Assembly (NCBI RefSeq): GCF_001270265.1
Contig: NZ_LGAP01000005.1
Span: 62,001-126,000, forward strand
Direction of reading: 5' to 3'
Length of the DNA stretch: 64,000 nt
DNA from: Ensifer adhaerens
GTDB taxonomy: Bacteria > Pseudomonadota > Alphaproteobacteria > Rhizobiales > Rhizobiaceae
Numbering within the stretch: position 1 is the first letter of the stretch; every line of letters starts with the position of its first letter. Below the pieces are notes generated by a model. That model was given only the letters and a program-made list of their open reading frames with translations, did no database searches and had not been told where the DNA came from. Below, piece by piece: positions 25,803-58,949 of this stretch. Position numbers and translations under genes: made by a program.

Positions 25803-26603
25803 CTACTTCTTGCCGAAGATCCACTTGTCGACGAGCGTCTTGACCTGTCCGTCCTTTTCGAGAGCGGCGAGACCGGCATTGACCTTTTCGAGCGTCGCAG
25901 CGTCACCCTTGCGCACGGCATAGGCAACACCTTCGCCGAGAACGGCATTCTTCGGCACTTCGACCTTGACTTCGTAGTCGGCGCCGTCGGGCGACTTGAG
26001 GAACGTCTGGATGTAGAGGTCCGGGATCAGAACGTAGTCAACGCGGCCGGCGACGAGATCGGCAACGGAGTTGTCGGCGGTGTCGTAGCTCTTCGCCTCG
26101 GCGCCCGGCAGATACTTGGCAACATAGGCCGACTGCACGCTCGACGTCTGGACGCCGATGATCTTGCCCTCGACGCTGGCCGGATCGATGATCTGGCCGG
26201 TGCCATCGGCAGCGTCGATCGTCTTGATCTCGCTGGTGTCGGACTTGGCACCGACGAAGGACGTGCCCTCGGTGTAGTAAGGCGTCGAGAAATCGACGAC
26301 CTTGCGGCGTTCATCGGTGATAGAGAACGCGCCGATGATGAAATCGACCTTGTTTTCCTTCAGCGAGGGAATGAGACCATCCCATGCCATCTGGTTGATG
26401 TCGCACTTCACCGCCATCTTTTCGCAGAGCGCGCGCGACAGGTCGGCCTCAAGGCCTTCCCATTCGCCGCCGGCATTGACCTGCGTGAAGGGCATGTATG
26501 GCTCAGGTGTCATGCCCAGACGCACCGTGTCTTCAGCGAAAGCGGCGCTCGCCGCCATGGAAAGGGCGATCCCTGCGAACAGGGCCGACTTGAACGTTCT
26601 CAT
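25803..26603 (-). CDS. Basic amino acid-type periplasmic binding protein (ArgT/HisJ type)
   Basis: This 266-residue periplasmic binding protein has a signal peptide (MRTFKSALFAGIALSMAASAAFA). The mature protein has the SBP family 3 signature: VRLGMTPEPYMPFTQVNAGGEWEGLEADL, then LIPSLKENKVDFIIGAFSITDERRKVVDFSTPYY, and VEGKIIGVQTSS at the second lobe. It should bind arginine, ornithine, citrulline or a methylated arginine and deliver it to the HisQM-type channel. It lies 29 bases after the DDAH gene in the same transcript. Confidence 0.9.
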   Translation of the reverse strand: MRTFKSALFAGIALSMAASAAFAEDTVRLGMTPEPYMPFTQVNAGGEWEGLEADLSRALCEKMAVKCDINQMAWDGLIPSLKENKVDFIIGAFSITDERRKVVDFSTPYYTEGTSFVGAKSDTSEIKTIDAADGTGQIIDPASVEGKIIGVQTSSVQSAYVAKYLPGAEAKSYDTADNSVADLVAGRVDYVLIPDLYIQTFLKSPDGADYEVKVEVPKNAVLGEGVAYAVRKGDAATLEKVNAGLAALEKDGQVKTLVDKWIFGKK

Positions 26604-26632
26604 GATATTTCCTCCGCGAATATGTGTTTGGA

Positions 26633-27436
26633 TCAGAGCGTGTTGCTGAACCAGCGCAGCGACATGCAGGACAGGCCTGCATCGATCTTGCCGATTTCGG
26701 TGGTCTTCAGCGGTGCGACCTTGTAGCCGAGCTTGTCGAGCATCTCGATCGTGCGCGGGAAGTCGGAACCAACCATGACGACATCGTTGACGCGCAGCGC
26801 GTTGGCCGCCGGCTCTTCGCCTTCCGGAATGATGACCTGCTTGAAGCGGTCGAACACGCCCGACTTGGCGAGACGAGCGGTCGAAAGCACGGTTTCCTCA
26901 TCGAGCAGCGAGCAATCGGTCTTGAAGTGCAGCACGCCTTCAGGGGTGGCGACGATCTCGCTCTTGCGGCCGAGCTTGTCGAGGCAGGCCTGCAGCGCTT
27001 CCGCACCGACCTTGTCGGTGCGCGCCGAAAGGCCGATCATCACGCTTTCGCGGGTCGTCAGCACGTCGCCGCCGTCGGCAAGGCCGCTACCCGGCAGGTC
27101 GAGAACCGTCTCGAACATGGCGCGAAGGGTCGGCTCGATCTCGATCGTTTCCTTGACGCGGGTCGCAGCGCCCGGACGCAGGAGGATCGCACCTTCGGTG
27201 AAGACCAGCGCCGGATCTTCAACGAAGATCGAATCCGGGAAGGCTTCGAGTGCCGGAAGAACGGTGACCTTGACGCCCGCATCCTTCATCGCAGCGATGT
27301 AGGTATCGTGCTCGGCCTTCACGCCCTCATAGGTCGGATTGCCACGATCGTCGGCGCGCAGGCCGTTGACGACGGTGGTCGACGGCGTACGGACGATGAT
27401 GTTGTTGAAATTGTAGACGGGGCGTGCTTGCGACAT
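26633..27436 (-). CDS. Dimethylarginine dimethylaminohydrolase-like enzyme (DDAH)
   Basis: This 267-residue enzyme of the guanidine-modifying superfamily would hydrolyse N-omega-methylated arginine to citrulline plus methylamine or dimethylamine. It starts MSQARPVYNFNNIIVRTPS, carries FPDSIFVEDPALV (residues 66-78), LADGGDVLTT (119-128), the catalytic histidine in VLHFKTDCSLLD (His170) and the nucleophile in GLSCMSLRWF (Cys257). Length fits DDAH (about 254-285) rather than arginine deiminase (about 410). I start at ATG 27436; the reading frame extends upstream through the ctlX tail and is not used. A 31-bp gap separates it from the CtlX-like gene. Confidence 0.87.
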   Translation of the reverse strand: MSQARPVYNFNNIIVRTPSTTVVNGLRADDRGNPTYEGVKAEHDTYIAAMKDAGVKVTVLPALEAFPDSIFVEDPALVFTEGAILLRPGAATRVKETIEIEPTLRAMFETVLDLPGSGLADGGDVLTTRESVMIGLSARTDKVGAEALQACLDKLGRKSEIVATPEGVLHFKTDCSLLDEETVLSTARLAKSGVFDRFKQVIIPEGEEPAANALRVNDVVMVGSDFPRTIEMLDKLGYKVAPLKTTEIGKIDAGLSCMSLRWFSNTL

Positions 27437-27467
27437 TTGTAGTACCTTTGGCTTGGATGAGGTGCTT

Positions 27468-28439
27468 CTATCGATCGGATGTGGCGGCGTAAAGCTTTTG
27501 CGTACCGGCCGGTTCTCTGCGCGACAAATGAACGCCGGCGAGCATGCAGCGCACGGAGCCGCCGGCAAGCTCGATGGTGGGCACGTCGAAGGCGAGCACA
27601 CGGGCCGAAGCCTCAAGCGCCTTGATCTGATCCGGGCGGAGCGACGCAAGCGCGCGCGCCGACATCACGACGACACGCCCATCGGCACCATCGAGTTCTA
27701 TCGCGTTGCCGGCAAAGTTCTCGATCTGATCGATCGTGAGGTCGATGACCTGCCGGCCGGTTTCTTCCAACCGCGCGCAGATCTCCTGGCGCCGTGCAGC
27801 ATCGGGGATCATGCTGGTGCCAATCAGTGCAAAGTCGGTGCCGATGCACATCAGCACATTGGTGTGGTAGATCGAATTGCCGTTGCGATCGACCGCGCCG
27901 AAGACCATCGGTTCGAAATTGAAGTGGGTGCAGAAACGTTCCAGCGCCACCTCGTTGGTGCGGTTCGACCGCGCCGCATAGGCCACGCGACCGATATGGT
28001 CGAGCACCATGGCGCCGGTACCTTCGAGATAGACGCCGTCCTTTTCGAGGCCCGAATAGTCGATCACGTCCTGGACGCGGTACTCGTTCTTGAGCATCTC
28101 GATGATATCGGAGCGGCGCTCGCTCTGACGACTTTCCGAATACATCGGATAGATCGCCACGTGCCCACCCGAATGGGTGGAGAACCAGTTGTTCGGAAAC
28201 ACCGAGTCCGGACGCGTCATCGTCTCGTCCTCGAACAGATGGACGGCGACGCCGGCGGCCGACAGGCCGTCAGCCATGCGCGTCACTTCGTCGAAAGCAG
28301 CCGTTGCGATCGCCGAAGGCTGACGCGCCTCGTCGTTCGACTGAAAGGCATTGTCCTTGGCCGTCATCGGGTTCGGGCCGAAATGGTGCGGACGGATCAT
28401 CACGACGCCCTTGGGCGCCTGCACGGACAGTCTCTTCAT
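27468..28439 (-). CDS. ctlX: CtlX-like citrulline/arginine hydrolase (amidinotransferase superfamily)
   Basis: This 323-residue protein of the guanidine-modifying (pentein) fold has RPHHFGPNPMTAKDNAFQ at the N-terminus, RPDSVFPNNWFSTH with the Asp-Ser-Val-Phe substrate site, LEGTGAMVLDH in the middle, YHTNVLMCIG with the catalytic His, and the nucleophilic Cys in GGSVRCMLAG near the end. Its blocks match proteins named citrulline utilization hydrolase CtlX; the product would be ornithine. ATG 28439 begins one base after the ocd stop, so the two are coupled. The name is recalled, not searched, and an arginine-deiminase-like role is the main alternative. Confidence 0.75.
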   Translation of the reverse strand: MKRLSVQAPKGVVMIRPHHFGPNPMTAKDNAFQSNDEARQPSAIATAAFDEVTRMADGLSAAGVAVHLFEDETMTRPDSVFPNNWFSTHSGGHVAIYPMYSESRQSERRSDIIEMLKNEYRVQDVIDYSGLEKDGVYLEGTGAMVLDHIGRVAYAARSNRTNEVALERFCTHFNFEPMVFGAVDRNGNSIYHTNVLMCIGTDFALIGTSMIPDAARRQEICARLEETGRQVIDLTIDQIENFAGNAIELDGADGRVVVMSARALASLRPDQIKALEASARVLAFDVPTIELAGGSVRCMLAGVHLSRREPAGTQKLYAATSDR

Positions 28440-28440
28440 T

Positions 28441-29490
28441 TCAGGCAACGCTCCGCTCGGCAAGGGCAGCGGCAACCGGCTGCTTGAACAGACCATAGAG
28501 GTCACGCGGATGCTCCGGCTGCGTTGTCAGGTCGAGCTCGGTGTAGAAGGCCGTGCCCTGAATCCTGTCGCGAAGGAAGCGCAGCGCCGAGAAGTCCTCA
28601 GTGGCAAAGCCGACGGAATCGAAGATGGTGATTTGGGAGCCCGACCGGCGCCCTTCCGCCTCGCCCACAATCACGCGCCAAAGCTCGGTTACCGGGAAGT
28701 CCGGCGCCATCTGCTGGATTTCGCCTTCGATCCGGGTCTGCTCCGGATATTCGACGAAGACGTCGGCGCGACGCAGGATATCTCCCTGCAGTTCGGTTTT
28801 ACCGGGGCAATCGCCACCAACGGCGTTGATGTGCACGCCAGCGCCGACCATGTTGTCGGAGAGGATCGTCGCGTTGCGTTTGTCGGCTGTCACCGTCGTG
28901 ATGATATCGGCTCCGGAAACAGCCTCTTCGGCGGTCTTCGCCACAACGATATCGAAATCCATGTCGGCGAGGTTCTTCTGGAACTTGTCCGCCGCTTCGA
29001 TATCGATATCGAAAACCTGCAGACGCTTGATGCCGAGCAATGCCCGGAACGCCAGCGCCTGGAATTCAGATTGCGCGCCAAGGCCGATGATCGCCATCGA
29101 GCGGGCATCTGGGCGAGCGAGGTATTTTGCCGCCAGCGCCGAGGTCGCGGCGGTGCGCAGACCGGTCATGATCGTCATCTCGGAGACGAGACAGGGATAA
29201 CCCGTGCTGACATCGGAAAGAACGCCGAAGGCCGTGACCGTCTGCAGGCCGACATTCGGGTTCTTCGGGTGGCCGTTGACGTATTTGAAGCCGTAATGCT
29301 CGCCGTCAGACGTCGGCATCAGTTCGATGACGCCCGTCTTCGAATGGCTCGCAAGCCGCGGGGTTTTCTCAAAAGCGTTCCACCTGCGGAAATCGTCTTC
29401 GATATATTCCGCAAGACCCAACAGGAACGTTTCAATGCCGATCGATTTGACCAGCTCGATTACGTTGCCGACACCGACATACTGAACCAC
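28441..29490 (-). CDS. ocd: Ornithine cyclodeaminase
   Basis: This 349-residue NAD-dependent enzyme would convert ornithine to proline and ammonia. Marks of the OCD/mu-crystallin family are MTIMTGLRTAATSALAAKYL (about residues 105-124), the Rossmann motif IIGLGAQSEFQALAFRAL, VFDIDIEAADKF after it, and VGAGVHINAVGGDCPGKTEL with the catalytic Asp. The C-terminus and length match Agrobacterium and Sinorhizobium Ocd. As the first gene of the operon ending with the M20 hydrolase, it takes the ornithine produced by the downstream hydrolases, giving proline as the end product. It is divergent from an Lrp/AsnC gene. Confidence 0.92.
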   Translation of the reverse strand: MVQYVGVGNVIELVKSIGIETFLLGLAEYIEDDFRRWNAFEKTPRLASHSKTGVIELMPTSDGEHYGFKYVNGHPKNPNVGLQTVTAFGVLSDVSTGYPCLVSEMTIMTGLRTAATSALAAKYLARPDARSMAIIGLGAQSEFQALAFRALLGIKRLQVFDIDIEAADKFQKNLADMDFDIVVAKTAEEAVSGADIITTVTADKRNATILSDNMVGAGVHINAVGGDCPGKTELQGDILRRADVFVEYPEQTRIEGEIQQMAPDFPVTELWRVIVGEAEGRRSGSQITIFDSVGFATEDFSALRFLRDRIQGTAFYTELDLTTQPEHPRDLYGLFKQPVAAALAERSVA

Positions 29491-48796: not shown

Positions 48797-50599
48797 CTAA
48801 CTGCCGATCGGGGCGGTGCGCGCTGCCAGCCACGCCGCGGTCTGCGGATCAAGCAAGCCTTCCATCGTCCTGGCGACACGCCAATGATAGGCGTCGATCC
48901 ATTCCTTTTCGGTTTCGCTCAACAGCCTGCTATCCACGAGCCGCAGATCGATCGGCACCAATGTCAGGCTGCGGAAGCTCATGAAGCCGTCGCCGTCGTC
49001 GATCACTTCCACCTGGTTCTCGATACGGATGCCGTATTCCCCAGCCTTGTAATAACCGGGCTCGATGGTTGTCACCATGCCCGGGCGCAGTTCGATCTCG
49101 TTGACGCGGCGGTCGAAGCGCTGCGGCTGCTCGTGCACCGACAGGAAATGGCCGACGCCGTGGCCGGTACCGTGATCGTAGTCGAGCCCGAGGTCCCAAA
49201 GCGGCCGGCGCGCGAAGGCGTCGAGGTGATGGCCGTAGGTCCCTTTCGGAAATTTGAGCGAGACCATGGAAATCAGCCCCTTGAGGACTGCCGTATAGGC
49301 ACGCCTGATCTCATCGTTGACAGGCCCAATTGCCGTCGTGCGTGTCGCATCCGTCGTGCCGGTGAAGTATTGCCCACCGGAATCCAGCAGATAGACGCCA
49401 CGTGAGGTGATCGGCGCGTTGCTCTTTGCGCTCGCCGCGTAATGGCACATGGCGGCATGGCCGGCGGCGGCCGAGATCGATCGGAAGCTCGGCTCGACGA
49501 ACGTCTCCTCCATCTGCCGGAAGGCGAGGATACGATCCTCCGCCTCCATTTCGGTCACGGGCCGTCCCTCCTGCTCCCGCTCGGCCGCATTGGCCTCAAG
49601 CCAGGCGAAGAACTTGATCCACGCGGCGCCGTCATGGCTGTGGCAATCGCGAAAGCCCTGGAGTTCGACCGGGTTCTTCAGCATCTTGGCAAGCGTGATC
49701 GGGCTGCGCAAAAGGCGGACGTTGCCGCCGGCCCCACGCGTCGCATGGGCGACTGCCGATGGGGCGAAGCCGGGATCGACGAGCGCTACACGCCCGGCGG
49801 CGACCGTCCGGACGCGGTCAAGAAGCACTTCCGGCGCGGACATCGTCACGCCGTCGAGCTCGAAGTTCGAGAGATCGTTGGACAGTTTGCGGTGGTCGAC
49901 GAGCCATTCGACCCGACCATCCCTGTCGGCGATCATGAAAGATTGCGGCATCGGATTGAAGGCCACGTCGCGACCGCGGACGTTCAGGAACCAGGCGATA
50001 TTATCTGGCTGCGCCTCGATCAGGAGATCGGCACCGTGCTCCTCCAGCATCTGGCCAATGCGGCGCTTCTTGTCGGCGACGCTTTCGCCGGCATAGTCGC
50101 GCGACAGGGCAATGACATTGCCAAGCGGGCGTTCGGGCTGGTCCGACCAGATCGCGTCAACGAGATCATCCGTCACGGCAACCCACTCGGCGCCGGCGGC
50201 GGCGACGGATTGGCCGCAATCGACATCCCAGGTCGACGGCAGCAGCATCGAATTGAAGCCGACGCGTTCGCCCTTGCGCAGGTTCTTTCGCAGCCAGTCC
50301 TTTAGAGGTGCATCGTAGAAATGCTCGATTGCGAAGCTGTCGACGTCGATCTCCTGCCGAACCTGCACCTGGTAGCGGCCGTCGACAAAGATGGCCGCGC
50401 GGTCGCGCATGACGATCGCCACGCCTGCCGATCCGGTGAAGCCGGTCACGAAGGCGAGCCTGTTGTCATGGGGCGCACAGTATTCGCCCTGATGCTCGTC
50501 GAACCGCGGGATGACGTAGCCGTCCAGTCCTTGCTCGTCGAGTTCGCGGCGCAGGGCCTCGATCCGACCGGAGGCGTCCTGCCTGTCTTTCGATGTCAT
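48797..50599 (-). CDS. Xaa-Pro aminopeptidase, M24B family
   Basis: This 600-residue metallopeptidase would remove the N-terminal residue of peptides with proline in second position. Two creatinase-like N-terminal domains (FDEHQGEYCAPHDNRLAFVTGFTGSAG near residue 33) precede the pita-bread catalytic domain, where the metal ligands are visible: DSGGQYFTGTTDATRT (two Asp), GTGHGVGHFLSVHEQP (His) and TTIEPGYYKAGEYGIRIENQ (two Glu). No signal peptide is present, so it acts in the cytoplasm on imported peptides. It is the last gene of a peptide-importer operon, 28 bases after the ATPase gene. Confidence 0.93.
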   Translation of the reverse strand: MTSKDRQDASGRIEALRRELDEQGLDGYVIPRFDEHQGEYCAPHDNRLAFVTGFTGSAGVAIVMRDRAAIFVDGRYQVQVRQEIDVDSFAIEHFYDAPLKDWLRKNLRKGERVGFNSMLLPSTWDVDCGQSVAAAGAEWVAVTDDLVDAIWSDQPERPLGNVIALSRDYAGESVADKKRRIGQMLEEHGADLLIEAQPDNIAWFLNVRGRDVAFNPMPQSFMIADRDGRVEWLVDHRKLSNDLSNFELDGVTMSAPEVLLDRVRTVAAGRVALVDPGFAPSAVAHATRGAGGNVRLLRSPITLAKMLKNPVELQGFRDCHSHDGAAWIKFFAWLEANAAEREQEGRPVTEMEAEDRILAFRQMEETFVEPSFRSISAAAGHAAMCHYAASAKSNAPITSRGVYLLDSGGQYFTGTTDATRTTAIGPVNDEIRRAYTAVLKGLISMVSLKFPKGTYGHHLDAFARRPLWDLGLDYDHGTGHGVGHFLSVHEQPQRFDRRVNEIELRPGMVTTIEPGYYKAGEYGIRIENQVEVIDDGDGFMSFRSLTLVPIDLRLVDSRLLSETEKEWIDAYHWRVARTMEGLLDPQTAAWLAARTAPIGS

Positions 50600-50627: not shown

Positions 50628-51641
50628 TCACACGCCGCCGATCGCTTCTGCGAAGTGACAGGCGGTCAAGCCGTTGCCGACTGGCCGGAGTGCCGGCTTT
50701 TCCCGACGGCAAAGCTCGGTGGCGTGCGGGCAGCGGACGTGGAAGGGGCAGCCCGGCGGAATGTCGAGCGGGCTCGGCAACTCGCCGGATAGCGCCGGCG
50801 CTCGGCGCCGCTCAGTCGGATCGAGCGAAGGGGCTGCCGCCAGCAGGGCTTGCGAATATGGATGCATTGGCTTTGAAAAGAGCGCCTCCGACGGACTGAT
50901 CTCAACGATGGCGCCGAGATAGATCACCGCCACACGATGGGAGACATGGCGCACCAGTCTGAGGTCATGGGCAACAAACAGCACCGTCAGCCCGAGATTG
51001 TCCTGCAGCTCGAGCAGCAGATTGACGACCTGCGCCTGAACGGAAACGTCGAGCGCGGAAACCAGCTCATCGGCGACAAGGCAGGTCGGCTCCAGCGAAA
51101 GCGCCCGCGCGATGCCAATGCGCTGACGCTGTCCCCCGGAAAATTCGTGCGGATATTTGTCGGCCGCGCCGTCAGGCAGCCGCACCAGTTCAAGCAGTTC
51201 GTCGACGCGGCGGTCGATGCCGGCGCCATCGCGCATGCGATGGACCGTGATCGCCTCCCGCAGGGTGTCGCGCACGGTCATGCGCGGATTGAGCGACGTA
51301 TAGGGATCCTGGAACATCATCTGGACGCGCTTGTTGTAGCCGCGTCGCCTGGCGCCCTTGAGGTCGATGACACTTTCGCCTTCGAAGCGGATATCGCCTG
51401 ATGTCGGCCGGTGCAGGCCGGCGATGCAACGCGCGAGCGTCGACTTGCCGCAACCGGATTCGCCGACGATGCCGAGTGTTTCGGCCGGCATTACGTCGAG
51501 GTCGACGCCGTTCAACGCCGACACGACCTGCCGCGGCCGTCCGGCAAGCGTGTCCGACAGCGAGCGACGCTTTTCAAACCGCATGAAAAGATCGCGAATG
51601 GAAAGCAGCGGCGTGGCCGCCTGATGCGTTGTTTGGCTCAT
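50628..51641 (-). CDS. Dipeptide/oligopeptide ABC ATP-binding protein (DppF type)
   Basis: This 337-residue ATPase has Walker A (GIVGESGCGKSTLAR, about residue 57), MMFQDPYTSLNPRMTVRDTL, signature FSGGQRQRIGIARAL and FVAHDLRLVRHVS. Walker B reads CLVADELVSALD, where the usual Asp-Glu-Pro is Asp-Glu-Leu, a variant also common in rhizobial DppF proteins (from memory). The C-terminal oligopeptide domain with clustered cysteines (GCPFHVRCPHATELCRR) is present, unlike in the 31-37 kb system, supporting true peptide transport. ATG 51641 overlaps the upstream stop (ATGA). Confidence 0.92.
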   Translation of the reverse strand: MSQTTHQAATPLLSIRDLFMRFEKRRSLSDTLAGRPRQVVSALNGVDLDVMPAETLGIVGESGCGKSTLARCIAGLHRPTSGDIRFEGESVIDLKGARRRGYNKRVQMMFQDPYTSLNPRMTVRDTLREAITVHRMRDGAGIDRRVDELLELVRLPDGAADKYPHEFSGGQRQRIGIARALSLEPTCLVADELVSALDVSVQAQVVNLLLELQDNLGLTVLFVAHDLRLVRHVSHRVAVIYLGAIVEISPSEALFSKPMHPYSQALLAAAPSLDPTERRRAPALSGELPSPLDIPPGCPFHVRCPHATELCRREKPALRPVGNGLTACHFAEAIGGV

Positions 51642-52651
51642 TGCGCCGCCTCCCGCGCGCTGAAATGGGCGAGTGCTTCCTCGCGGTGATGGCAGGCGAC
51701 CTGGCGCTGTCGTCCGGCAGCTTCCAGGCTCGGGCGAACATCGAGGCATTCCGGGCCGGCCACGGGACAGCGGGCCGTAAACGCACAACCAGCCGGTAAG
51801 GCGTTCAATGCCGGCGGTGCACCGGGGATGGAATAAAGCGGCGTGCGCGGTGCTACGTCACGTGGGATGGAGCGCAAAAGCCCGAGCGAATAGGGATGCC
51901 GAGCGTCGCCGATGACATCAGCCGTTGGTCCCGTTTCGCACAGTCGCCCGCCATACATCACCGCCACCCGATCGCAGGTCTCTGCCACGACGCCCATATC
52001 ATGGGTGACGAGGATCACGGCCATGCCGAGATCGCGGCTGAGCGCCTGAATGAGGCGCAGGATCTGGTCCTGAATGGTGACATCGAGCGCCGTCGTCGGC
52101 TCGTCGGCCAAGAGCAGCTGCGGGTTGGAAGCAAGGGCAATGGCGATCATCACCCGTTGCCGCATGCCGCCGGAAAACTCGTGCGGATAGTCGCCGAGCC
52201 TGTTGCGCGCCGCGGGAATGCCGACCATGTCGAGCAGTTCAATCGCGCGAGCCTTCCGCGCCTTCGCATCCAGCTCGGTATGAGCGGCGAGGTTTTCCGA
52301 GATCTGCAAGCCGACGGTCAGAAGCGGGTTGAGCGACGACATCGGCTCCTGAAAGATCATCGCGATCTCGCGTCCGCGCACCCGTCGCAGCGCCGCCTCG
52401 TCAAGCGGCACCAGATCCCTTCCCTTCCAGAGAATTTCACCGCTGACGCGGCCGCGCGGCCGCGCAATGCCGAGGATCGAACGCAGGGTGATGCTCTTGC
52501 CCGAGCCGGATTCGCCGACAAGCCCCAGGATTTCCCCGGTCCTCACCTGAAACGACACATCGTCGACAGCGACCAAAGGGCGCTCGGCCAAACCGAATTC
52601 GGTTCGCAGGTGCCGGACGTCCAGAACCATTTCTTTTTCAGCGTGGCTCAT
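51638..52651 (-). CDS. Dipeptide/oligopeptide ABC ATP-binding protein (DppD type)
   Basis: This 337-residue ATPase has Walker A ([15 protein letters not shown]), [20 protein letters not shown], signature [15 protein letters not shown], Walker B ([12 protein letters not shown]) and [15 protein letters not shown]. The C-terminal extension has the cysteine-containing [17 protein letters not shown] typical of peptide transporters. ATG 52651 follows the permease stop by one base; the frame opens further upstream but would overlap the permease gene. Confidence 0.93.
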
Positions 52652-52652
52652 G

Positions 52653-53522
52653 TCAGCGCCCTTTCGGTCGAAGCAGATCGGCCAGTGCATCGCCGACAAG
52701 GCTGAAGCCGAGGCCGGTGAGCACGATCGCGATGCCCGGCATCAGGCTCATCCACCAGGCCGTCAGCAGGAAATTGCGGCCCTCGGCGATCAAGACGCCC
52801 CATTCGGCTGCGGGTGGTTGTGCGCCCAGGCCGAGATAACCGAGCGACGAGCCGAGCAGGATGGCGAGCGCCATATCGGTCATCCAGTAGACGATGATCG
52901 GCGATGTCGCGTTGGGAAGCAGATGCCGGAAGATGATGCGCCGGTCGGAATAGCCGAGCACGCGGCCGGCCGCGGCATAGTCGTTGGCCTTCTGCGCCAT
53001 GATCTCCGCCCGCGTCAGACGGGCATAATAGACCCAGTTCACCGCCGTGATCGCCACATACATGTTGACGAGGCCAGGCCCGAGCACCGCAACGATGGCG
53101 ATGACCAGCACGAGGAAGGGAAAGGTGATGATCGCATCGACGCAGCGGCCGAAGATGGTGTCGGCGATGCCGCCGTAATAGCCGACGAAGGCGCCGACGG
53201 TCACCCCGATCAGAAGCGCAAAGATCGTGGCGAAGAAGGCCATCTGCATATCGACACGATAGGCCCAGATGACTCGCGAGAGCACATCGCGGCCGAAATT
53301 GTCGGTGCCGAAGGGATGGGCAAGGCTCGGCCCTTGCTGGATCGCACTCAGGTCGAAGGCGAGCGGATCGTAGGGTGCCAGCACCTGCGGAAAAAGAGCC
53401 AGCGCGATCGACAGGGTGAGAATCGCAAAGCCGATGACGAAGGACGGTCGCGAGAAGGCCCGGCCAAGAAAGGGACGCAAGCGACCCGCTTTGCGGATGG
53501 GAGATTGCACGACAATGCTCAT
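52653..53522 (-). CDS. Dipeptide/oligopeptide ABC permease (DppC type)
   Basis: This 289-residue permease has AHPFGTDNFGRDVLSRVIWAYRVDMQ, FVGYYGGIADTIFGRCVDAIITFPFLVLVIAIV and the coupling loop AQKANDYAAAGRVLGYSDRRIIFRHLLPN, followed by LGYLGLGAQPPAAEWGVLIAEGR. About six membrane segments. Its start overlaps the DppB-type stop by four bases. Confidence 0.93.
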   Translation of the reverse strand: MSIVVQSPIRKAGRLRPFLGRAFSRPSFVIGFAILTLSIALALFPQVLAPYDPLAFDLSAIQQGPSLAHPFGTDNFGRDVLSRVIWAYRVDMQMAFFATIFALLIGVTVGAFVGYYGGIADTIFGRCVDAIITFPFLVLVIAIVAVLGPGLVNMYVAITAVNWVYYARLTRAEIMAQKANDYAAAGRVLGYSDRRIIFRHLLPNATSPIIVYWMTDMALAILLGSSLGYLGLGAQPPAAEWGVLIAEGRNFLLTAWWMSLMPGIAIVLTGLGFSLVGDALADLLRPKGR

Positions 53523-54460
53523 GACTGGCGAAGCCTCGGATCGAGCCAGGATTGCACGATGTCCGTCAGCAGGAAGACGACGGAAACGAGCACAGCGAAG
53601 GTGAGCGTGAGCCCCTGGATCAGCGGATAGTCACGCGCGAAGATCGCCTCCAACATCAGCCGACCGACGCCCGGAACGGCAAAGACGGTCTCGGTGACCA
53701 GCGTTCCGCTCATCAGGTTGCCGATGGAAAGGCCGAGCAGCGTCACGGTCGAGACCAGCGCGTTGCGCAGCACATGCCGCGTCATGACGATGCGCCGCGA
53801 CAACCCCTTGGCGCGGGCGAACTGCACGTAGTCGGCATCGAGCACTTCGATCAGGGAGGCCCTCAGGTTGCGCAGGATGATGGCCGAGGTGTAGAGCGCG
53901 ACGCTGAGCGCCGGCAGGATCAGGTGATGAAGGTTGTCGAGAAAGCCCGTCCCGTAGCCGCCGACGGGAAACCAGCGCAGCTGGGCTCCAAGAACCGTCA
54001 GCAGCACCAGACCGATGTAAAAGACCGGCATGGACAGCCCGACCTGGAAGACGCTGCGAATTGCCACATCAACGGGACTGTTGACCCGCGAGGCGGCAAG
54101 AAACGCGAGCGGCCCTGCGAGACAGATTGCCAGCAGAACCGAGTAGAGTGCCAGGAAGATCGTGGTCGGCAGGCGCGCGAGGATGATCTCGGTGACCGGC
54201 GCCTTCAGCATGATCGAACGCCCGAGATCGCCGGTCAGTGTGTTCTTGACGAACACGAGAAACTGGATCGGCAGCGGCTGATCGAGGCCGAGATTGTGGC
54301 GGATCTGCTCGAGTTGCGCGTCCGTCGCCTTGGCTTCGGCCATGGCGATGGCAGGGTCCCCGGGCAGCAGCCGGACAAGCAGGAAGATGAAGATCATGAC
54401 CAGAAGAAAGGTCGGGATGATCTGCAGCAACCGCGCCAGAAGATAGGATAACGAGGGCAT
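53519..54460 (-). CDS. Dipeptide/oligopeptide ABC permease (DppB type)
   Basis: This 313-residue permease has the family N-terminus LSYLLARLLQIIPTFLLVMIFIFLLVRLLPGDPA, NLGLDQPLPIQFLVFVKNTLTGDLGRSI, the loop YVQFARAKGLSRRIVMTRHVLRNAL and ETVFAVPGVGRLMLEAIFARDYPLIQG. It follows the binding-protein gene across a 65-bp gap with a hairpin and is coupled to the DppC-type gene. Confidence 0.93.
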   Translation of the reverse strand: MPSLSYLLARLLQIIPTFLLVMIFIFLLVRLLPGDPAIAMAEAKATDAQLEQIRHNLGLDQPLPIQFLVFVKNTLTGDLGRSIMLKAPVTEIILARLPTTIFLALYSVLLAICLAGPLAFLAASRVNSPVDVAIRSVFQVGLSMPVFYIGLVLLTVLGAQLRWFPVGGYGTGFLDNLHHLILPALSVALYTSAIILRNLRASLIEVLDADYVQFARAKGLSRRIVMTRHVLRNALVSTVTLLGLSIGNLMSGTLVTETVFAVPGVGRLMLEAIFARDYPLIQGLTLTFAVLVSVVFLLTDIVQSWLDPRLRQS

Positions 54461-54525: not shown

Positions 54526-56103
54526 TCACTTGGCCCGCCAGGCCTCGGAGAAATCGTTCGCACCGAGTGGCGTCTGTACATATCCCTCGATCGACTTCGA
54601 AACGGCAACGGCAAAGGGGGTTTCGAACAGGAAGAGCAGCGGCGCGCCCTCTGCATAGATTTCCTGCATCTGCTTGTATTCGTCCTTGCGCTTGGCCGGA
54701 TCGACCTGGACATTGGACGCCTCGAACAGCGTGTTGAATTCTGCGTTGTTCCAGCCGGTACCCACTGCCTGCCGCTGCTTGTAGTAGCCGAGCCAGCCGG
54801 TGACCTGCGCCGGGTCGTTGACGTCGTTTGCCCAGCCATAGGTGTGGATGTCGAAGTCTCCGGACCGGTTCTTCTCGCCGCGTGTCGGATTGTCGACCTG
54901 TTCGACCTTGAGGTTGACGCCGAGCGGCGACCACATCTGCTGCAGGGCGGTGAACAAGGTCGCGTCGTCCGCGCTGCCGGCAAGCGTGGTGAACGTCACC
55001 TCGAAGCCCCCGCCGAGGCCGGCTTCGTCGAGCAGTTGCTTGGCCTTTTCAGAATTGTAGGGATAGAGCGGCTCGGGTCCGTAATGGAGCTGGGTGGCGG
55101 CCGACATCAGCGACGTCATCGGCTTGCCAGTATCGAAGGTGACGAGCTTGATCAGGACGTTCTTGTCGGTGGCGTAGTTCAGCGCCTGCCGTACCTTGAC
55201 GTCGGCAAGCGGGTTCTTGGAGCCGTCCTTGCGGGTCTCACGCGTATTGATCGGTGCATAGACGATGCGGGTCGAGGGAAAGAGCTCCATCTTCAGCGCG
55301 GGATCGGCGCCGAGTTCGCCAACCCGGGCGAAAGGAATGAATTCCGCGGCATCGACCTCACCGGCCTGGAGCTTGAGAATGCGAGTAGCGTCGTCAGGGA
55401 TGATGACGAAATCAACCTGGTCTAGATAGGGCAGCGGTTGCCCGTCCGTGCCGGGCCGCCAATAGTTCGGGTTGCGTGCGAAGGTCATGCTCGAGCCCTG
55501 CACGCGGCTCTTCATGGTGAATGGGCCGGAGGTTACCGGGCCGGCCTCGAAGAAGGCGCGCGCCTTTTCCTGGTCGTTTGCGCCGGCCGCCTTCTCGAAG
55601 GCCGCTTGCGGCATGATGCCGGTGTTGAAGGTCGCGAGAATCGAGACGATGGTCGGGTCCGGGTTCTTGAGCGTCAGCGTCACCTGGTTGCCTTCGGCGG
55701 AAACCTTGTCGACGGCGCCAAGCAGGCCGGCCCAGGGGCCAAGCTCTGGGTTGCGGGCCCGATCGAGCGAGAACACCACGTCGGCACCCGTCAGGGCCGA
55801 CCCGTCGGAGAATTTCAGGCCGTCACGCAATTTGAGCTTGATCGAAAGCCCGTCGGCAGCGACGTCGTAGCCCTCGGCCAGCCCCGGCACGATCGACCCG
55901 TCCGGGCCGTTGCGCAGCAGCGTTTCGTAAAGGCCGGTGACCATCCAGAGATCCGGATTGCGATCTGCATAGACCGGGTCGATGACCGTGGAATCGTCGT
56001 AGCGCGCAAAGGTCATCGCGCCGCCACGCTCGATGGCCAGTGCAGACGTGGCCGCAGCCAGCCCGAGTGCCGCGCCTAGTAAGATCGGCAACAAACGTTT
56101 CAT
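54526..56103 (-). CDS. Peptide-class ABC substrate-binding protein (SBP family 5)
   Basis: This 525-residue periplasmic protein has the signal peptide MKRLLPILLGAALGLAAATSALA. The mature part starts IERGGAMTFARYDDSTVIDPVYADRNPD, with the family 5 blocks VPGLAEGYDVAADGLSIKLKLRDGLKFSDG and VKVRQALNYATDKNVLIKLV. It is the first gene of the importer operon ending with Xaa-Pro aminopeptidase, so peptides with proline or hydroxyproline are the likely ligands. A TTGGATCCA-type site lies 58-75 bases upstream. Confidence 0.9.
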   Translation of the reverse strand: MKRLLPILLGAALGLAAATSALAIERGGAMTFARYDDSTVIDPVYADRNPDLWMVTGLYETLLRNGPDGSIVPGLAEGYDVAADGLSIKLKLRDGLKFSDGSALTGADVVFSLDRARNPELGPWAGLLGAVDKVSAEGNQVTLTLKNPDPTIVSILATFNTGIMPQAAFEKAAGANDQEKARAFFEAGPVTSGPFTMKSRVQGSSMTFARNPNYWRPGTDGQPLPYLDQVDFVIIPDDATRILKLQAGEVDAAEFIPFARVGELGADPALKMELFPSTRIVYAPINTRETRKDGSKNPLADVKVRQALNYATDKNVLIKLVTFDTGKPMTSLMSAATQLHYGPEPLYPYNSEKAKQLLDEAGLGGGFEVTFTTLAGSADDATLFTALQQMWSPLGVNLKVEQVDNPTRGEKNRSGDFDIHTYGWANDVNDPAQVTGWLGYYKQRQAVGTGWNNAEFNTLFEASNVQVDPAKRKDEYKQMQEIYAEGAPLLFLFETPFAVAVSKSIEGYVQTPLGANDFSEAWRAK

Positions 56104-56160
56104 CTCTCACTCCTCCTGTTTGATCGACCGGCAAACGCCGGCGCGACACCTCGGCGCATT

Positions 56161-56178
56161 AATTGGATATTGGATCCA
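56161..56178. promoter_or_regulatory. Candidate GntR operator, site 1 (importer operon)
   Basis: AATTGGATATTGGATCCA matches the minus strand of 58141-58158 at 16 of 18 positions, including an exact 12-base run ATATTGGATCCA. It lies 58-75 bases upstream of the binding-protein gene start, a normal place for a repressor site. Confidence 0.6.
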
Positions 56179-56183
56179 CTTTT

Positions 56184-56208
56184 TCCGGACGTTTTTCTTG
56201 CGTCCGGA
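56184..56208. other. Hairpin inside divergent regulatory region
   Basis: TCCGGACG (56184-56191) and CGTCCGGA (56201-56208) are perfect 8-bp arms around TTTTTCTTG. It sits just upstream of the GntR-type site. It could be a second protein-binding site or an RNA structure in the leader of the XRE gene. Confidence 0.35.
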
Positions 56209-56282
56209 TTGCGGCGAAGGCATTCTTGTTGTTCCCCTTTTTAAAGCGGTAAAGCAGCGGAGCTGATCCGCTTGCATAACCG

Positions 56283-56301
56283 ACTTTAGCTGGACTAAAG
56301 T
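56283..56301. promoter_or_regulatory. Candidate XRE-cupin operator
   Basis: ACTTTAG (56283-56289) and CTAAAGT (56295-56301) are perfect arms around CTGGA, 36 bases before the XRE-cupin start. Palindromes of the type TTTAG-N5-CTAAA are what I expect for this regulator family, so autoregulation is likely. Confidence 0.5.
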
Positions 56302-56336
56302 ACAACAACAGACGCGAGTCAAGCAGAAAGAAAACC

Positions 56337-56957
56337 ATGCCTCTCGATACGGATGAGGCGCCTGTGGCCGACGCCGGCGCCCCCCTTTCCGACATGCCTG
56401 CGGCCGCAACCATCGGCCAGATGCTGCGGGCACGCCGCAAGGAAATCGGCAAGACGATGAAGCAGGTCGCGCACGAAGCGGGTCTGACCGAGGGCTTTAT
56501 CAGCCAGATCGAAAGAGGCATTTCGACCCCGTCGCTGATCTCGCTCTACAATGTCGCCAATGCGCTCGGCACCAGCGTCGACACCTTCCTGTCGCAGCCG
56601 CCTCAGCATGCCCATTCCATGGTGTCTCACGCCGGCGAGCGCCGCGGCTATAACGTCGAGACCAAGGAGCGCGTCTATGAACTGCTCGAGCGCGGCTTTC
56701 CCGGCGCCCAGCTCAACGGCTGCATCACCCACATGCCGGTCGGTTACGCCTCCGAACTGACCAGCCATGAAGGCGAGGATTTTCTCTATCTGATCGAAGG
56801 CGAGATGCTCTACGAGATCGACGGAAAGGAATATGTGCTGAAGGCAGGAGACACCCTGCACTTCCCCTCGTCCCTGCCGCACCGCGCCCGCAACATCGGC
56901 GCAGGGCCGGCCCGCGAACTCTGGGTCGGCACCACGCGCATCATTGCCGAGGAATAG
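56337..56957 (+). CDS. XRE family regulator with C-terminal cupin domain
   Basis: This 206-residue regulator has a helix-turn-helix (IGQMLRARRKEIGKTMKQVAHEAGLTEGFISQIERGIS region, residues about 23-62) and a cupin domain (VGYASELTSHEGEDFLYLIEGEMLYEIDGKEY, about 135-165, with LKAGDTLHFPSSLPHRARN). It is divergent from the peptide importer and convergent with the hydroxyproline-type enzyme gene. It resembles the 32931 regulator in layout but is not a close copy. It probably senses an amino acid or amine from peptide breakdown and adds a second layer of control beside the GntR protein. Confidence 0.9.
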   Translation: MPLDTDEAPVADAGAPLSDMPAAATIGQMLRARRKEIGKTMKQVAHEAGLTEGFISQIERGISTPSLISLYNVANALGTSVDTFLSQPPQHAHSMVSHAGERRGYNVETKERVYELLERGFPGAQLNGCITHMPVGYASELTSHEGEDFLYLIEGEMLYEIDGKEYVLKAGDTLHFPSSLPHRARNIGAGPARELWVGTTRIIAEE

Positions 56958-56969
56958 GCCGCCGAGGGC

Positions 56970-58001
56970 CTACTGTTTGCGAGGCCAGGTATCGGCGAGC
57001 CGGTAGCCGGCCGGCCACGGATCAGCCGGATCGAGCATCACCTGGTGCGTGCCGGTGACCCAGGCGCGACCGGAGATTTCCGGAACGATGGCCGGGCGCC
57101 CACCAACGGTCGTTTCGCCGACGATGCGGCAATCGAACGTCGAATCGATGATGGAGTGACCGACAAAACGCTGCCCGACCTTCATTTGTCCGCGGGCGTG
57201 CAGCACCGCCATGCGTGCCGAGCAGCCCGTGCCGGTCGGCGAGCGGTCGAGCTTAGCTGGCTGGATCACCACCGTGTTGCGACCGTGCAGGACGCCGTCG
57301 CGCTCTTCCACCGGCAGCGTCAGCTGGCAAAACGAGATATGAGCCCATTCCGAGTTTTCGGGATGTGAAAATCCGAGCTGCTCGTTGGCGGCACGCGTGA
57401 TCTTGATACCGGTCTCGGCCAGTTCGCGGGCTTCGTCCGGCGTCACTGAAAAGCCGAGCGTGCGAGCATCGGTGATCACGAAGCTGTCGCCGCCATAGGC
57501 CGTGTCGACGGTGAGCGTGCCGAGCCCTTCCACCTCAAGCTTGGCATCGAGCTTGCCGGCAAAGGAGGGCACGTTGGTCACCGTGATGCGCTCGGCCTTG
57601 CCGTTGCGGCAGGTGGCGACGACATCGACCAGTCCGCCGGGCGCCTCCAGCACCATCCTCGTCTCGGGCTCCTGCATCGGCACGATGCCGCTGTCGAGCA
57701 GCACGGTCGAGACGCAGATCGAGTTGGAACCCGACATCGGCGGCGTGTCCTCCGGCTCCATGATAATGAAGCCCATGGTCGCGCGCGGATCCTTCGGCGG
57801 CACCAGCAGGTTGATGTGACGGAAGACCCCGCCGCGCGGCTCGTTGAGCACGAAATTGCGCAAGGTCTGATCCTCGGCGATGAAGCGCCGTTGCTCCCAG
57901 AGCGTCTTGCCCGGCGGCGGCGCGACGCCGCCGACGATAACATCGCCGACTTCCCCCTCCGCATGGCAGGAAACAATATGAATGACCTTGCTGCTGCGCA
58001 T
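56970..58001 (-). CDS. Proline racemase superfamily enzyme (hydroxyproline epimerase / 3-hydroxyproline dehydratase type), Ser/Cys variant
   Basis: This 343-residue enzyme has the proline racemase fold signature: [19 protein letters not shown] at the start, then [17 protein letters not shown] (residues 89-105) and [21 protein letters not shown] (from residue 252). The first catalytic position, Cys in racemases (MCGHG), is Ser90; the second is Cys260. Family members act on proline, 4-hydroxyproline or trans-3-hydroxyproline; the Ser/Cys pair argues against a plain proline racemase. ATG 58001 is preceded by GAGAGATG; the frame extends upstream through the promoter and is not used. It is divergent from a GntR gene. 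Confidence 0.87.
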
Positions 58002-58138
58002 CTCTCGCCTCCACACGAAGCATGCGAACCGCATCCACATGCCATGCCTTGATATCTGCACGTCGACACTCAGGAGAACGGCTCTCATTCGGCGGCCAAA
58101 GGGCCGCTGACAGTCGACTTGCCAACAGTCATAGAAAG

Positions 58139-58158
58139 ATTGGATCCAATATACAATC
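58139..58158. promoter_or_regulatory. Candidate GntR operator, site 2 (between divergent genes)
   Basis: ATTGGATCCAAT (58139-58150) is a perfect 12-bp palindrome, followed by ATACAATC. The minus strand repeats site 1 at 56161-56178 with 16 of 18 matches. It lies about 140 bases before the hydroxyproline-type enzyme and 126-145 bases before the GntR start. Confidence 0.65.
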
Positions 58159-58283
58159 TGAAATATACGAAACTTTGAGGAAAGCCGCACGCTCTGTTGC
58201 CCGGCCAAAGGAATGGACCTATGACCAGAACCACGGCAGTTTTCCGCACTGCCAGAGACACAAGCCGCTGGGGTCTGGACGCA

Positions 58284-58949
58284 ATGAAACTCGATGCCGT
58301 TGATATCAGGCAAGCCGCTTCTGCAGCCGATATCGTCTATGAGGCATTGCGCAAGGCGATCATCGAGGGCGCGCTCGCCGAAGGCGAAAACCTGCGGCAG
58401 GACCAGATCGCCCAGATGTTCAACACCAGCCGCATCCCCGTGCGCGAGGCGCTCTCGCGCCTTGAACAGCATGGGTTGATCACGACACAACGCTACAAGG
58501 GCGCCGTCGTTGCCGGCCTCTCCATCGAGGAAATCGAAGAGATCTTCGAATTTCGCGCGCTGCTGGAGGCAGAAGTCATCCGGCTTGCCGTGCCCAACAT
58601 GGACAGAAGGACGCTCGAGCTTGCCCGCAGACACTGCGACGAGTTTGGAAAAGAATCCGATTCGGCCAAGTGGGGCGAGACCAACCGGAACTTCCACTAC
58701 AGCCTCTATGAGGCCGCGCGGCGGCCCTACTACCTGCAGATCGTGCGCGCCTCGCTCGACCGTATCGATCGCTATCTCCGCGCTCAACTGACGCTGACGG
58801 ACGGCATGAAGCGCGCGGCGCGCGAGCATGAGGCGATCCTCGAGGCCTGCACCAAGGGCGACGCCGAACTGGCCTCGTCGCTCACCCGAGACCATATCCT
58901 CGACGCCGGCCGCTCGCTCGTCGCTTTCCTTAGGGAACAGAGAGGTTAA
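58284..58949 (+). CDS. GntR family regulator, FCD subgroup
   Basis: This regulator of about 221 residues has a winged helix-turn-helix ([41 protein letters not shown], residues about 15-55, read in parts) and an all-helical FCD ligand domain ([64 protein letters not shown]), where Asp/His residues bind a metal. FadR-type proteins often control amino acid or sugar acid catabolism. Earlier in-frame starts exist at 58221 and 58197; 58284 gives the usual family length. The divergent partner and shared operator suggest it represses the hydroxyproline and peptide-import units. Confidence 0.88.

Follow-up and report, generated by a model that had tools for sequence, protein, structure and literature searches.

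Does a pair of nearly identical sites in the Ensifer adhaerens genome tie a peptide importer and a hydroxyproline-type enzyme into one regulon, and if so, which regulator owns the sites? The question is raised by a 64,000-nt stretch (the window; C45:62001-126000 of an assembly of 7,459,544 bases in 99 contigs) in which an operon for an ABC importer, a gene for an XRE-cupin regulator, a gene for a predicted trans-3-hydroxyproline dehydratase, and a gene for an FCD-type GntR regulator (gntR) are neighbors. A preliminary description of this DNA had reported two sites agreeing at 16 of 18 bases, and had proposed that the GntR protein controls the uptake, cleavage, and conversion of proline- and hydroxyproline-rich peptides. 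Both sites were located, AATTGGATATTGGATCCA at 56161-56178 (+) and GATTGTATATTGGATCCA at 58141-58158 (-), and they are identical at 16 of 18 bases. The comparisons reported here indicate that the importer operon and the dehydratase gene probably belong to a local regulon with two operators, controlled by the GntR protein.

Two conserved sites per genome

The pattern ATTGKATATTGGATCCA, derived from the two sites themselves, had two matches in the window with up to three mismatches allowed. Both were mismatch-free, 0.14 matches were expected, and a count of two was reached by 1 of 100 shuffles. The common 11-mer TATTGGATCCA occurs twice in the whole 7.46-Mb assembly, both times at the studied sites (reversed-pattern control, 0). 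This count is close to the expectation from base composition (~1-2, by simple arithmetic), so enrichment of the 11-mer was dropped as evidence, and the placing and conservation of the sites were taken as evidence instead. A second pattern, TTGKATATTNNATCCAA, matched 56 places in the window's genome with up to three mismatches, compared to 25 for its reversed control. Matches with zero or one mismatch fell at the two studied sites only; two other places had two mismatches, and 52 had three. Because TTGKATATTNNATCCAA had been composed from these sites and related ones, the independent test of it lies in other genomes and not in that of the window.

With up to one mismatch, TTGKATATTNNATCCAA was found at exactly two places in each of 16 genomes of the genus, one preceding the gene for the importer binding protein and the other preceding the dehydratase gene, and the reversed-pattern control gave 0 in all 16. 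A search of a public genome collection with the GntR protein returned 27 loci, of which 24, from Ensifer/Sinorhizobium, Rhizobium/Pararhizobium, Shinella, Aminobacter, and Rhizobiales, were used as orthologues (80-98% identity). The other three (L031-L033; 30-35% identity, no dehydratase) were removed before all counts. The dehydratase gene was present at all 24 loci, with the site in front of it at zero or one mismatch. Fifteen additionally carried the XRE-cupin gene, the binding-protein gene, and at least part of the importer. Nine had neither an XRE-cupin orthologue nor the binding protein in the fetched stretch and kept the dehydratase site, again with zero or one mismatch.

Intergenic regions from Ensifer/Sinorhizobium, Shinella, Aminobacter, and Rhizobium/Pararhizobium were aligned. 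On the dehydratase side (25 sequences), 15 of 17 columns were invariant in the site versus 8 of 203 outside it, the site was the second-ranked 17-bp conserved block, one base beside the first, and TTGKATATTNNATCCAA was matched exactly in 21 rows and with one mismatch in four. On the importer side (16 sequences), 13 of 17 site columns were invariant versus 60 of 205 outside, the site was tied for the top-ranked 17-bp block, and the match was exact in 14 rows, with one mismatch in two. The roughly compositional frequency of the 11-mer core would fit a pair of chance look-alikes, an explanation to which we assign a negligible probability: chance is refuted by the recurrence of exactly two sites in all 16 genus genomes and by their conservation in Shinella, Aminobacter, and Rhizobium/Pararhizobium.

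The site follows the GntR gene

The window GntR protein has the architecture of FCD-type GntR regulators, an N-terminal GntR helix-turn-helix (HTH) and a C-terminal FCD domain. As its start, ATG 58284 was preferred to 58221, since the latter lies inside a promoter-like block. Association of the site with this gene was examined in a family sample of 297 genomes, 17 of which had a match to the importer binding protein at E 1e-150 or better and 10 of which had one of at least 70% identity. Among these 10 importer-bearing genomes, the site preceded the importer in 7/7 with a GntR orthologue (at least 83% identity) and in 0/3 without. The seven are five genus genomes plus G260 and G271, which have the site, importers of 85 and 83% identity, and GntR orthologues of 84 and 83%, respectively. 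The three (G207, G268, and G048) have importer orthologues of 71-72%, no site, and a best GntR relative of 30-32%. The remaining seven genomes with a binding-protein match (48-52%), which were excluded from this count, had neither a site with fewer than four mismatches nor a GntR protein exceeding 37-39%. Together, these comparisons support the view that both sites belong to a single unit of two operons that follows the FCD-GntR gene across species. To this extent the proposal of GntR control over uptake, cleavage, and conversion is supported; the enzyme, however, is predicted to be of the trans-3-hydroxyproline type.

Among remote GntR proteins of 55-61% identity, the core palindrome upstream was intact in L051 and L052 and had one mismatch in L050. 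Relatives in this range have as neighbors a TRAP transporter (L118) or genes resembling a 4-hydroxyproline operon (L119 and L120). The operator is missing from a second GntR clade, which shows 47-48% identity (L056, G012:C20:74907-75527, and L053/L121). In L121, its gene is near one 39% identical to the dehydratase gene product and near an F420-oxidoreductase-fold gene, whose match to a pyrroline-5-carboxylate reductase dimerisation model falls under the cut-off.

The XRE-cupin gene sits between both sites and adjoins the importer. The shared site might accordingly be an XRE-cupin operator governing both operons, with the GntR gene an incidental neighbor. We regard this as very improbable and rejected it on a dissociation that runs both ways. 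The nine loci noted above keep the dehydratase site with neither an XRE-cupin orthologue nor the importer in the fetched stretch, although L014 among them carries a distant XRE-type gene (25% identity). Conversely, L095 and L096 have the XRE-cupin gene and the importer, lack the GntR site, and keep a different palindrome.

This palindrome, ACTTTAGCTGGACTAAAGT, lies between the importer site and the XRE-cupin gene, and 15 of its 19 columns are invariant in 16 loci. It is kept with one mismatch in L095 and with none in L096, whereas L097, whose XRE-cupin protein is 48% identical, has neither this palindrome nor the GntR site. The reversed control of the corresponding pattern ACTTTAGNNNNNCTAAAGT was commoner than the pattern itself (2 + 2 versus 1 + 1), so its uniqueness in the genome (Table 1) is by itself weak evidence. 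The XRE-cupin protein is the probable natural owner of ACTTTAGCTGGACTAAAGT, and the importer is therefore probably under two controllers, GntR and XRE-cupin. Neither the second regulator nor its conserved palindrome appeared in the preliminary description. The protein resembles PuuR-type regulators in its HTH-plus-cupin architecture and differs from them in its own palindrome and in a score far under the PuuR equivalog cut-off (61.2 of 211 bits).

Table 1. Features of the regulon locus in window coordinates
Feature	Position	Strand	Remarks
GntR operator (putative), importer operon	56163..56179	+	TTGGATATTGGATCCAC; single substitution relative to the usual genus form TTGGATATTGGATCCAA
GntR operator (putative), trans-3-hydroxyproline dehydratase gene	58140..58156	-	TTGTATATTGGATCCAA; perfect match to TTGKATATTNNATCCAA
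FCD-type GntR regulator	58284..58949	+	Pfam FCD 89.4 bits, GntR 60.3 bits, both above gathering score
gntR promoter-like block (putative)	58197..58225	+	TTGCCn-N17-TATSAC in 22/25 aligned stretches
-10-like CTATGA, dehydratase promoter (putative)	58129..58134	-	16 bp from the operator's TTGTAT
trans-3-Hydroxyproline dehydratase (predicted)	56970..58001	-	NCBIfam NF047722 equivalog, 659 bits vs cut-off 550
XRE-cupin regulator, divergent from importer (PuuR-like)	56337..56957	+	Pfam HTH_3, Cupin_2
Palindrome ACTTTAGCTGGACTAAAGT, probable XRE-cupin operator	56283..56301	.	Sole genome place with 0-1 mismatch to ACTTTAGNNNNNCTAAAGT
XRE-cupin promoter-like block (putative)	56271..56299	+	CTTGCn-N17-ACTAAA in 16/16 loci; overlaps XRE palindrome
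Periplasmic binding protein, peptide-type ABC importer (SBP_bac_5)	54526..56103	-	Pfam PF00496, 296 bits
Importer permease 1	53519..54460	-	Opp/Dpp/Nik permease models, all listed under cut-off
Importer permease 2	52653..53522	-	Opp/Dpp/Nik permease models, all listed under cut-off
Importer ATPase 1 (OppD-like)	51638..52654	-	NCBIfam scan as 51638-52699; 338-aa form in locus comparison
Importer ATPase 2 (OppF-like)	50628..51641	-	NCBIfam scan as 50628-51788; 337-aa form in locus comparison
Xaa-Pro aminopeptidase (M24B, three-domain), last gene of importer operon	48797..50599	-	Pfam M24, Creatinase_N, Creatinase_N_2, M24_C

Enzyme, importer, and aminopeptidase

The predicted window dehydratase exceeds the cut-off of one dehydratase equivalog model (Table 1) and does not reach that of a second, NF045511 (211 versus 540). 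It is 72.4% identical to a protein annotated as trans-3-hydroxyproline dehydratase in Allorhizobium ampelinum S4, and its third-best PDB match is 4k7g, named 3-hydroxyproline dehydratase, which we take to be B9K4G4 of Agrobacterium vitis. The enzyme has Ser90, Asn93, and Thr256, the signature reported for the dehydratase B9K4G4 (PMC4113996). The Ser90/Thr256 enzyme cluster is described there as heterogeneous, with both dehydratase and 4-hydroxyproline epimerase functions.

The importer shows the Opp/Dpp layout, with an SBP_bac_5 protein, two permeases, and two ATPases in single-strand order. The aminopeptidase has the three-domain architecture of the M24B APP1 type; its best PDB match is Xaa-Pro aminopeptidase 1 (3ctz; 348 bits, residues 20-598 of 600). 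Single-strand order and short gaps make it likely that the genes from importer through aminopeptidase are one operon. Plant extensin, which the preliminary description had offered as a substrate, was a poor guess, because extensin carries 4-hydroxyproline and the window enzyme is of the Ser90/Asn93/Thr256, predicted trans-3-hydroxyproline type.

Anatomy of the site and its relation to promoters

Positions conserved nearly universally across the rows read TTGKATATT..ATCC. Three TTGKAT-type half-sites are readable. They combine into two pairs: the outer one spans 17 bp, with a gap of five bases, and the inner one, TTGGATCCAA, spans 10 bp. The Aminobacter importer sites, TTGGATATTTTATCCAA (three rows), keep the outer pair alone, and in the Aminobacter dehydratase sites the last half-site is weakened. 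Tandem half-sites of this kind, with overlapping outer 17-bp and inner 10-bp palindromes, might let two dimers bind together.

Two other palindromes were noted. L123:6736-6759 carries one of 24 bp, with 11 of 12 pairs matched and a perfect 18-bp core, GATATTGGATCCAATATC, between the gene for a 39%-identical GntR protein and a divergent class I/II aminotransferase gene. In the contig of the window, TATTGTATACAATA at C45:6241 was considered as a third target and not counted, because it is similar to the inner form and not to the 17-bp one. It is a perfect palindrome (L005:1501-1514; G000:C45:6241-6254), 112 kb from the studied sites and ~110-150 bp upstream of a gene that, by eye, is amino-acid ABC binding-protein-like, and is possibly the operator of another GntR protein.

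Promoter boxes were named from conservation. Upstream of the dehydratase gene, TTGTAT-N16-CTANNA was found at 22 of 25 loci, with CTATGG in the other three; given this spacing, both the -35 hexamer and the greater part of the spacer would lie within the operator. In L018, L020, and L022 (genomes G002, G011, and G013, respectively), where gntR is separated from the site by 0.9-5.9 kb, the promoter-like block of gntR precedes the displaced gene, and the operator remains with the dehydratase gene. In G014, gntR is ~27 kb away and both sites are still present. There, gntR keeps the company of a long downstream open reading frame (1818 aa in L126; in the window, from about 59091 onward), and the importer and dehydratase genes are ~27-30 kb off. 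Since the site stays with the enzyme gene where gntR is displaced, and gntR retains its own block, the second site was assigned to the enzyme promoter. The preliminary description had placed it between the enzyme gene and gntR, and of the two promoters it goes with that of the enzyme gene.

FCD-GntR proteins are capable of both activation and repression, and the importer site, which starts 44-60 bases from the start codon, has the opposite orientation relative to transcription. The GntR protein could then be an activator, or could act in opposite directions at the two promoters. We consider this distinctly unlikely given the dehydratase site, whose position over a -35-like hexamer and most of the spacer at 22 of 25 loci is typical of repression. 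Because of this placement, the most likely role of the GntR protein is that of a repressor of both operons until trans-3-hydroxyproline or a product of it appears.

The window regulator is distinct from HypR

A GntR protein beside a hydroxyproline gene could be taken for HypR. This identity was rejected for the window protein. It is ~32% identical to Sinorhizobium meliloti HypR (the gene being assigned by its position beside hypD), the two fall in separate clades of a tree that carries long-branch warnings for several remote rows, and the window's genome has a separate HypR orthologue on another contig (C12:2624-3319), 87% identical to the S. meliloti gene. The studied operator is absent from the hyp contig, the only two sites with zero or one mismatch in the genome being elsewhere, and by this measure the 4-hydroxyproline (hyp) cluster is not under the window protein.

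On C12, HypR is followed by HypD-, Ldh_2-, HypMNPQ-, and HypO-like genes (names given by similarity and order), a 4-hydroxyproline epimerase gene (612 bits versus a cut-off of 376), and a cis-3-hydroxyproline dehydratase gene (948 versus 700); the Hyp-like cluster with HypR spans L167:2492-14296 (G000:C12). In S. meliloti, the hyp cluster continues with a dehydratase gene whose product is 72% identical to that of the window. In the window's genome, no trans-3-hydroxyproline dehydratase gene follows the hyp cluster within the 20 kb examined, and the gene sits in the window instead. Of the nine loci without the importer, eight have a HypR-like gene directly downstream of the GntR gene.

The ornithine cyclodeaminase-family gene at window positions 28441-29490 was considered as the missing pyrroline-2-carboxylate reductase gene and rejected: it scores as ornithine cyclodeaminase (550 bits versus 350) and below the cut-offs of the reductase models. 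It is the only PF02423 match in the genome and ends a run (25803-29490) that opens, judging by eye, with an amino-acid binding protein and two arginine/ornithine catabolism-like enzymes. By analogy with described neighborhoods, the Ldh_2 gene at C12:4554-5528 is a better candidate for the reductase. A second Ldh_2 gene was seen at C16:11473.

Proposed regulation and points that weigh on it

Starting from the observed sites, their conservation and uniqueness, their association with the GntR gene, and the gene families, we propose a scheme that extends to binding, repression, ligand, transported substrate, and operon structure. Bound at the dehydratase operator, the GntR repressor would cover the -35 element and the greater part of the spacer. 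It would leave the DNA once it had bound trans-3-hydroxyproline or the pyrroline-2-carboxylate made from it. Induction would then increase the uptake of proline/hydroxyproline peptides, which would be cleaved N-terminal to (hydroxy)proline, and the freed trans-3-hydroxyproline would be dehydrated. Reduction to L-proline would be left to the Ldh_2-type reductase candidate of the separate hyp cluster. The importer would additionally be controlled by the XRE-cupin protein through its own palindrome.

Alternatively, the GntR protein may bind both sites in a regulon that serves another compound, such as proline-rich peptides generally, opine-like compounds, or 3-hydroxyproline-containing lipopeptides, the dehydratase being a side branch. 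Three genomes have the importer and aminopeptidase with no GntR orthologue and no dehydratase in the fetched stretches, and the binding protein has matches of mixed specificity that stay under equivalog cut-offs. In addition, free hydroxyprolines have been argued to stem from peptide antibiotics rather than collagen (PMC5144071). Set against this, the dehydratase gene is present and site-bearing at 24 of 24 orthologous loci, which makes the trans-3-hydroxyproline step the constant part of the regulon. We therefore think another compound somewhat unlikely, and we return to control by trans-3-hydroxyproline or its product.

Several observations count against the proposed regulon. On the side of the importer, the binding protein is below the cut-off of all 10 NCBIfam models listed and, among the best 60 of 103 PDB matches, resembles dipeptide-, nickel-, haem-, and opine-binding proteins; since G207, G268, and G048 have the importer without this GntR gene, hydroxyproline peptides may not be its chief substrate. 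The importer-side regions are also highly similar in general, with 60 of 205 non-site columns invariant. More generally, the genomes are not independent, since the 24 loci and the 16 genus genomes share 10 entries that represent the same DNA. The motif does not map exactly onto the clade: the GntR relatives L053, L056, and L108 (39-48%) have no site and L055 (42%) has one with two mismatches, yet L054, with a GntR protein of only 39%, carries a perfect site. In 5 of 16 genus genomes (G002, G010, G011, G013, and G014), a distance of 0.9-27 kb separates gntR from the site, and autoregulation through the dehydratase-side site is not conserved. Sigma-70 scans of both intergenic regions at the tool thresholds returned no promoter, and TTGTAT is a weak -35 hexamer. 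Finally, the reductase role of Ldh_2 rests on analogy with PMC4113996.

Rhizobium-type relatives have the dehydratase-GntR pair next to the hyp cluster, and other Rhizobiaceae have the importer without this GntR gene. The simplest history would be one of capture. An importer controlled by the XRE-cupin protein would have come beside a dehydratase-GntR pair, and the importer promoter would have gained a GntR operator, giving a regulon dedicated to scavenging trans-3-hydroxyproline peptides. Peptide uptake would then answer both to the XRE-cupin ligand and to trans-3-hydroxyproline or its product. We put this forward tentatively, as a possible rather than a probable course of events.

Relation to known systems and implications

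The joint control of peptide uptake, proline peptidases, and hydroxyproline catabolism by a GntR protein is of a known kind, being already predicted for HypR in gammaproteobacteria (PMC5343134). The HypR regulons predicted there for Alteromonadales/Aeromonas contain the proline peptidases PrdP, AmpP, and YpdF and a proline di/tripeptide permease, and those of Alteromonadales include collagenases. In Streptomyces, repression by HypR was shown for hydroxyproline genes and for a putative collagenase gene (PMC6608401). The earlier statement that no regulon with this combination had been described was hence too strong. The window system would share GntR/FCD control of hydroxyproline use with the HypR regulon of S. 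meliloti and other Proteobacteria (PMC5343134); its regulator is in another clade from S. meliloti HypR, and its operator is absent from the hyp region. Streptomyces coelicolor HypR is comparable as a FadR-subfamily GntR repressor that links a putative collagenase to hydroxyproline catabolism (PMC6608401); it differs in its operator, CTNTGC(A/C)ATGTCAC, in its 4-hydroxyproline pathway, and in having a collagenase in place of a peptide importer.

The dehydratase neighborhoods of PMC4113996 resemble that of the window in their Ser90/Thr256-type dehydratase and in their transport and peptidase neighbors; clusters of this dehydratase (t3HypD) in Bacilli include TRAP and ABC transport and peptidase families, and Ldh_2-type (MLD2) reductases are described as well. 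The neighborhoods differ in that no regulator or operator is assigned to them in the passages covered, and "GntR" has 0 occurrences in the main text. Among the listed results of searches of open-licence PMC papers, we found no description of this GntR clade or operator. The new elements are the regulator clade, its predicted operator, a core centered on the dehydratase, an ABC peptide importer as second target, and putative XRE-cupin co-control.

These findings assign to a GntR clade, for which no name was found, a sharp predicted operator, a pair of targets in each genome, and a ligand open to testing. They also separate the clade from HypR, with which annotation based on gene neighborhood would confuse it. 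The locus further looks like a clear-cut natural example in which a promoter acquired an operator once two gene modules had become neighbors, with the apparent earlier states visible in relatives that have the importer and XRE-cupin gene without the site, or the dehydratase-GntR pair without the importer. Rhizobia-related soil bacteria appear to switch on a peptide importer, an aminopeptidase, and a trans-3-hydroxyproline dehydratase together.

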